Source: a bacterium
Lineage (GTDB): Bacteria; Gemmatimonadota; Glassbacteria; GWA2-58-10
Direction: 5' to 3'
Length of the DNA: 44,512 bases
Assembly (NCBI GenBank): GCA_021372515.1
Contig: JAJFUG010000030.1
Location: 1 to 44,512, forward strand
Shown: piece by piece, positions 29,359 through 31,460 of the stretch
Position numbering within the stretch: the first letter of the stretch is position 1
How the letters are laid out: each line of letters opens with the position of its first letter
Notes under the pieces: generated by a model
Database searches by the model: none
What the model saw: the letters and a program-made list of their open reading frames with translations, nothing else
What the model was told of the DNA's origin: nothing
Program-made: the position numbers and the translations under genes

Positions 29359-29508
29359 TCAGAGGGTGATGATGTTGAGCAGAGAGGGCAGGTTGGACAG
29401 CACTTTGGCTGCGATCAGATAGAGCAGTCCGAACAGGGCCAGGTTGAGGACCCAGTTCAGGACACGCTCTGCGAAAAAGGAAAAATCGTCGGTTCTTCCC
29501 TGGTTCAT
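29359..29508 (-). CDS. Small single-pass membrane protein
   Basis: A 49-residue protein starting MNQGRTDDFSFFAERVLNW, followed by one hydrophobic helix (VLNLALFGLLYLIAAKVL) and a short tail. The ATG at 29508 is preceded by a strong GGGGGGC about 6 bases upstream, and a near-consensus promoter lies 44 bases further up. The longer frame to 29625 crosses that promoter and is not credible. It is convergent with the GWxTD gene. I do not recognise a family; small one-helix proteins of this type often modulate envelope complexes. Confidence 0.65.
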   Translation of the reverse strand: MNQGRTDDFSFFAERVLNWVLNLALFGLLYLIAAKVLSNLPSLLNIITL

Positions 29509-29551
29509 GACTGCCCCCCGCAGACAATTGATGGCACGGAACCTGCATTTG

Positions 29552-29608: not shown

Positions 29609-29638
29609 TTGACAAACGCACACAACCATTACTATATT
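29609..29638 (+). promoter_or_regulatory. Strong promoter of the structured leader / lytic transglycosylase
   Basis: A perfect TTGACA (29609-29614), an 18-bp spacer and TATATT (29633-29638). The predicted start near 29645 is about 270 bases upstream of the transglycosylase ATG. It diverges from the small membrane protein promoter, with 27 bp between the -35 boxes. Confidence 0.75.
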
Positions 29639-29710
29639 TGGTGTAGCTTAGGAAGCCTTAATCTACATATGGTACAGACGCCGATAAGAGGGTTATATTC
29701 TGAACTGCGT

Positions 29711-29739
29711 GCCGGGCAACCGATTGGACCGGCTTTTTT
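29711..29739 (+). terminator. First leader terminator
   Basis: GCCGG (29711-29715) pairs with CCGGC (29729-29733), with an inner CAA/TTG and a CCGA tetraloop, followed by six T. Confidence 0.65.
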
Positions 29740-29775
29740 AAGGTGTTTTCTACCCGATATGGGATAATGACAAGG

Positions 29776-29813
29776 CCTGTTTGAATTTCTGGAGATTCAA
29801 AGGGTCTTTTTTT
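29776..29813 (+). terminator. Second leader terminator
   Basis: TTTGAAT (29780-29786) pairs with ATTCAAA (29795-29801), extended by CC/GG, and is followed by seven T (29807-29813). Confidence 0.75.
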
Positions 29814-29871
29814 GTGGGAGAGGGAGCCGGGTGTATTATTCTCTGGCGGTCGGACCGAGCCGCCACAATTT

Positions 29872-29900
29872 GGAAAACAGGCGTTAGACGCCTTTTGTCC
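29872..29900 (+). promoter_or_regulatory. Hairpin next to the transglycosylase ribosome binding site
   Basis: AGGCGT (29879-29884) and ACGCCT (29888-29893) form the top of an imperfect 11-pair stem with a TAG triloop and outer GGA/TCC pairs. It ends just before the AAAGGGG ribosome binding site (29901-29907), so it could tune translation. Another stem, TGGCGG/CCGCCA, lies at 29844-29865. Confidence 0.45.
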
Positions 29901-29916
29901 AAAGGGGTTATTCAAG

Positions 29917-30642
29917 ATGCACAGTACCAGCGTTTGGAATGAAATCGACCGTAAGACCCAAATCCGCCTCCGGGGGGCGCGCTTGCGAACCCGGGGCCTG
30001 ACCAAGCTGCTCACCCGTTCATCCAACATACTTTTCGGCTTCGTCGCTGTCGCCCTGTCGGCCTCAGTGGTCCATTGGCTGTACCAGTCCCCCGTGACAA
30101 CCTCCACCGAAGTCAAGATTCATATCGGGGGGGCGATCCCGGATGCCGAGGTGCCGCTGATCGCCGAGGCGCGCGCCATGCGCCGCACCGCTCTGGCCCA
30201 TTCGGTGCAGGTGGAGTCGGACCGCGATGTCGGCCGTTTCGCCGACCGGTTCAACATCGACTGGGACCTGGCTCGGCTGGTCAATTCGATCAGCGAGAGC
30301 GAGAACATGGACCCGAACCTGATTTTCAACGTGATCCAGGTCGAGAGCCAGTTCAACACCCGCGCCGTGGGTTCGGTGGGGGAGATCGGCCTGATGCAGG
30401 TGCGTCCCGAGACCGCCCTTACCATCGACCCGGGCGCGACTGTGGAGAAACTCTTCGATCCGGCCTACAACATCCGCATCGGAATCAAGCACCTCAAGGA
30501 CCAGCTCCATTTCTTCCGCGGCGACCTGCGCCTGGCCCTTCTGGCCTACAACCGCGGCCGGGGGACGATCAACTCACTGCTCTCGGTGGGCCTCGACCCC
30601 TCCAACGGCTACGCGGCCAAGATCATGAGCGGCAGCATGTAA
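29917..30642 (+). CDS. Membrane-anchored lytic transglycosylase (SLT domain)
   Basis: A 241-residue protein that cleaves the MurNAc-GlcNAc bond of peptidoglycan to give 1,6-anhydro ends. A basic N-terminal tail precedes one transmembrane helix (about 37-57). The SLT lysozyme-like domain spans about 110-240, with catalytic E143 in FNVIQVESQFN and the family motifs GLMQVRPET and LALLAYNRG. The ATG at 29917 follows AAAGGGG; a longer frame from 29812 begins inside a terminator tail and is rejected. Transcription comes from the strong promoter at 29609 through a long structured leader. It is a MltC/Slt-like family 1 enzyme without extra domains. Confidence 0.92.
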   Translation: MHSTSVWNEIDRKTQIRLRGARLRTRGLTKLLTRSSNILFGFVAVALSASVVHWLYQSPVTTSTEVKIHIGGAIPDAEVPLIAEARAMRRTALAHSVQVESDRDVGRFADRFNIDWDLARLVNSISESENMDPNLIFNVIQVESQFNTRAVGSVGEIGLMQVRPETALTIDPGATVEKLFDPAYNIRIGIKHLKDQLHFFRGDLRLALLAYNRGRGTINSLLSVGLDPSNGYAAKIMSGSM

Positions 30643-31415: not shown

Positions 31416-31444
31416 ATATTACTCGCGGGCCTTGACTTTGTCAA
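31416..31444 (-). promoter_or_regulatory. cvpA promoter
   Basis: On the minus strand, a perfect TTGACA (31444-31439), a 17-bp spacer and TAATAT (31421-31416). Predicted initiation near 31409 gives a leader of about 40 nt. Confidence 0.75.
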
Positions 31445-31460
31445 TGCGCCTGGCTATGTT
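31432..31460 (+). promoter_or_regulatory. ssrA promoter
   Basis: TTGACT (31432-31437), a 17-bp spacer and TATGTT (31455-31460). Initiation near 31467 would leave a short 5' extension removed by RNase P. The -35 is the left arm of the inverted repeat TTGACTTTGTCAA, whose right arm is the cvpA -35. Confidence 0.7.

Follow-up and report, generated by a model that had tools for sequence, protein, structure and literature searches.

Why should the gene for a wall-cutting enzyme be preceded by a leader of about 270 nt that contains two consecutive intrinsic terminators before the start codon? The question is raised by a lytic transglycosylase (LT) gene in a Glassbacteria genome, located in the stretch of 44,512 nt analyzed here as a whole (the window; contig 30, from a genome of 4.87 Mb). 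The transcript is predicted to start at around 29645, about 272 nt upstream of the ATG at 29917; if this start is correct, the 5' hairpin would lose its first few bases and have a shorter stem. The first-pass annotation had described a consensus promoter, a leader of this length, a 5' stem, two terminators with six and seven T, and two later stems reaching up to the ribosome binding site of a lytic transglycosylase gene, and we recovered all of these features (Table 1). The long-range pairing that had also been reported does form in the minimum-energy fold, between 29729-29739 and a G-rich stretch 3' of terminator 2, but this partner would be transcribed only after both terminators.

Table 1 Features of the LT gene and its upstream region in the window.
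Feature	Position	Strand	Details
Divergent gene for a 49-aa membrane-type small protein	29362..29508	-	In all six genomes; syntenic anchor
Sigma-54-type promoter (putative)	29532..29547	+	TGGCACGGAACCTGCA (TGGCAC-GGAAC-CTGCA); a similar site before LT in each of the six genomes
Sigma-70 promoter (putative)	29609..29638	+	TTGACA-N18-TATATT; near-consensus, 11/12 consensus positions
5' hairpin of predicted transcript	29641..29668	+	-8.9 kcal/mol, z -1.35
32-codon ORF	29669..29767	+	Spans terminator 1; no ribosome binding site
Intrinsic terminator 1 (predicted)	29711..29739	+	5-bp GC stem 29711-29733 and T6 29734-29739; z -1.0
Intrinsic terminator 2 (predicted)	29772..29813	+	16-bp stem with one bulge, 29772-29808; T7 29807-29813; z -2.3
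GC-rich hairpin (hairpin 4)	29844..29865	+	-12.5 kcal/mol, z -2.5
Hairpin adjoining the ribosome binding site (hairpin 5)	29869..29903	+	z -3.4
Ribosome binding site	29901..29907	+	AAAGGGG, before LT ATG 29917
LT	29917..30642	+	241 aa; N-terminal membrane segment and SLT domain (PF01464, E 9.4e-23)

The best reading of this arrangement is a premature-termination leader, in which LT transcription would be set by read-through; judging from sequence, we give it a probability of about one half. The sigma-70 promoter would produce an RNA of roughly 95-170 nt that mostly ends at the intrinsic terminators before LT, and the LT mRNA from this promoter would be limited to read-through. A second, sigma-54-type promoter upstream of the leader (3' of the terminator in one genus) would add regulated LT transcription, and the released RNA may also act as a small RNA (sRNA). 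The promoter, the terminators, the sigma-54-type sites and their conservation are read directly from the DNA, and we infer transcription, termination and read-through.

The comparison set consisted of six genomes of the class, namely the window's genome and G001-G005; an additional public record, L029, represents the same locus as G002. LT orthologues with 50-56% identity are present in all five other genomes, and the order of sigma-70 promoter, leader, terminator, hairpin near the ribosome binding site and LT is the same in all six. A TTGACA-N16-18-TAnnnT promoter lies at the same place in every LT upstream region, with almost no further matches in these loci outside the cvpA/tmRNA intergenic region. 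It is followed by a clear intrinsic terminator before LT in five of the six genomes, the T-tract of G002 being imperfect. Because this layout recurs, the leader is probably a real regulatory RNA, though a small one and of a known type. The neighbors are also common to all six genomes, with the 49-aa protein gene on one side (38-47% identity in L030-L034 by tblastn; no match in Pfam or NCBIfam) and the tmRNA downstream. Between the cvpA and tmRNA (ssrA) genes lie divergent promoters with overlapping -35 boxes that form a palindrome of the TTGACAATGTCAA type, both in the window (31416-31460) and in its equivalents in all five relatives (L030-L034).

Four of the leaders (G001, G003, G004 and G005) can be aligned and represent a single-copy, sequence-conserved RNA of 167-230 nt. 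The conserved parts are the start AACTTTTTTG, a YCRGGAAaayCGTT box and the terminator arms GCAATCTTTT ... GGAAAGRTTGCTTTTTTT; the arms, in the form GCAATCTTTT / GGAAAGRTTGC-T7-8, are nearly invariant. A covariance model from these leaders matched each of the four once and nothing in the window, G002 or 55 genomes of the wider phylum, and no extra leader copies were found by BLAST in the six genomes or by the covariance model in 61 genomes. The leaders of the window and G002 have diverged beyond sequence match to the other four, so the window is tied to its relatives by layout, not by sequence. Between G003 and G005, the leader is 76% identical, compared with 48% (31/64) for the fourfold sites of the LT gene; with about 140/200 leader positions taken from a sliding profile against 31/64, the difference gives a Fisher p of 0.0025. 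Both genomes have 5'-end hairpins, which differ in sequence from that of the window. The predicted transcripts of the five relatives (L030-L034) begin near AA(C/G)UUUU(U/G)U, which is absent in the window; promoters that show UTP-sensitive slippage have a U-run at the transcript start.

When the six leaders were aligned together with MAFFT, the result was reliable only in the promoter and was kept out of the covariation analysis. With the four alignable leaders only, RNAalifold recovered the terminator as the sole fold, with no two-sided changes; six genomes, four of them alignable, are too few for covariation to be decided. In five genomes, a small GC hairpin lies 8-9 nt 5' of the ribosome binding site; G002 has a different hairpin, further upstream. 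The pairs of the small GC hairpin, read by hand, vary on both sides: pair 3 is C-G or G-C, and pair 4 is G-C, C-G or U-G. A similar hairpin precedes about 13% of the other putative genes in these loci (19/147, LT genes left out), which makes the ribosome-site hairpin modest evidence. For the GC-rich hairpin 4, no counterpart was identified in the relatives.

The sigma-54-type promoter at 29532 had been overlooked in the first-pass annotation. All six sites follow the TGGCAC-N5-TTGCW-type sequence and spacing, with one mismatch in the window and CGGCA in G004, and only three further sites, away from the LT upstream regions, were found on both strands of 105 kb. Each of the six genomes carries an rpoN gene. 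The site precedes the sigma-70 promoter by about 62-81 bases in four genomes (the window's own, G001, G002 and G004); in the remaining two, G003 and G005, it immediately follows the terminator, with about 112 bases left to the start codon. Within the class, this promoter has thus switched sides of the leader, a change confined to one genus (G003, G005). Where both promoters are 5' of the terminator, as in the first four genomes, LT would require read-through, barring an unseen promoter between terminator and gene; in the genus with the site 3' of the terminator, LT transcription need not cross the leader, which counts against the premature-termination reading.

A switch between alternative folds was sought by pairing the terminator 5' arm with the upstream RNA in transcripts ending after the arm, using dinucleotide-shuffled upstream controls. 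In each of the six genomes the arm was 0.17-0.51 paired upstream and never above the shuffles. This result makes a simple RNA antiterminator switch unlikely and weighs against the premature-termination reading as well. The locus shares with premature-termination (attenuator) leaders in general the succession of promoter, leader, intrinsic terminator and gene, but neither an antiterminator nor a leader peptide was found here.

The lack of an antiterminator favors another reading, that of a stand-alone, trans-acting sRNA gene whose RNA base-pairs with its targets and which lies 5' of LT by chance, with LT served by the sigma-54-type or another promoter. Such a gene would have its own promoter and terminator, both present as sequence, and it would fit the conserved single-copy RNA with a strong terminator in four genomes as well as the sigma-54-type promoter that LT has after the terminator in G003 and G005. 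Elsewhere, in the remaining four genomes, the sigma-54-type site is 5' of the leader, so the RNA and LT are not separated, and the RNA always adjoins LT. Hfq was not found in the six genomes, but it is dispensable for many sRNAs. We regard the stand-alone sRNA as possible and as the main rival of the premature-termination leader, and both may hold; attenuator or small RNA, as originally proposed, is still the right pair of alternatives.

Each of the six genomes has a csrA gene, the four aligned leaders share one invariant GGA, and the relatives have AGGAG ribosome binding sites. These features are consistent with control of the leader by CsrA, which would bind GGA both in hairpins and in the ribosome binding site. 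GGA is a common triplet, however, and the ribosome binding site of the window has none; a role of CsrA is only a suggestion, and we consider a CsrA-controlled leader improbable.

Cyclic-dinucleotide riboswitches of the ydaO/c-di-AMP and GEMM c-di-GMP families are also found before wall hydrolases. An undescribed riboswitch that binds, for example, a cyclic dinucleotide or a cell-wall precursor and governs the terminators is a further rival reading. The terminator-bearing leader before a wall hydrolase and the YCRGGAAaayCGTT box kept in four genomes would suit this idea. In Rfam scans of the window and its relatives at gathering and relaxed thresholds, only tmRNA, a tRNA and chance matches appeared, leaving the leader without a family, be it a cyclic-dinucleotide riboswitch, 6S RNA or another; the first-pass annotation had likewise seen no known cyclic-dinucleotide riboswitch core. 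The suggestion of an undescribed riboswitch itself found no support, with no compensatory changes in the terminator stem of the four alignable leaders, the terminator as the only conserved fold predicted and thus no aptamer-like one, no mutually exclusive antiterminator above shuffles, and no significant structure in the window leader. We find no positive support for a ligand-binding riboswitch and consider it very improbable. On these comparisons the leader is probably restricted to the Glassbacteria lineage, with no sign of a new riboswitch.

As a conserved, single-copy RNA of roughly 180 nt, the leader resembles 6S RNA, but it does not match that family and the 6S candidates lie elsewhere: four of the six genomes have candidates below the Rfam cut-off at loci other than this one (L058-L061), and none was found in the window's genome. 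The 6S RNA of this class has perhaps diverged. Among published motifs, the closest one found is YjbJ (WRC-39-1) of Streptococcus, which lies 5' of a gene predicted to encode a lytic transglycosylase; it is rated a weak riboswitch candidate, has covariation-supported hairpins and 40 representatives, and its authors also allow protein binding (PMC11109978). In both cases the 5' UTR of the transglycosylase gene contains a hairpin and a second, terminator-like one, but the YjbJ motif belongs to another phylum, is supported by covariation, and is likened to this leader by description, not by sequence. Nothing relevant was found in the literature on Glassbacteria small RNAs.

The leader could also be an ordinary long 5' UTR whose terminator-like hairpins are incidental and regulate nothing. 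As a whole, it folds no differently from shuffled sequence (z -1.44 for 29609-29916, -0.68 from start to ATG and -0.29 from start to terminator 2), and no antiterminator was found. However, the + strand of the 44.5 kb window has only four T6+ tracts with a stable hairpin before them, two of which are the leader terminators. At this density of 0.10 per kb per strand, about 0.03 would be expected in 272 nt against the two observed, a contrast somewhat inflated by the A+T content of the leader, which is above the window average. A simple terminator scan detected neither terminator, owing to their loop and stem shapes. Since a terminator recurs at this position in five or six genomes, with nearly invariant sequence in four, an unregulated 5' UTR is highly improbable. 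Terminator 1 lies inside the 32-codon ORF, which exists one base from where it was first placed (29670-29768), but the ORF lacks a ribosome binding site, as had been noted, and has no counterpart in any relative, so that control of termination by translation of a leader peptide is largely refuted by non-conservation and scarcely credible.

We tentatively propose, as a possibility we rather doubt, that the leader is a Glassbacteria-restricted, undescribed regulatory RNA in which the conserved terminator and the sigma-54 promoter jointly gate LT, either through read-through controlled by a ligand or protein or through the released RNA acting in trans. Should read-through be regulated, the locus would show RNA-level control of a wall-cutting enzyme in an uncultured bacterial class, and its pairing of a premature terminator with a sigma-54 promoter would provide a testable two-input control; if not, it would hold a regulatory leader or sRNA gene of the ordinary sort.
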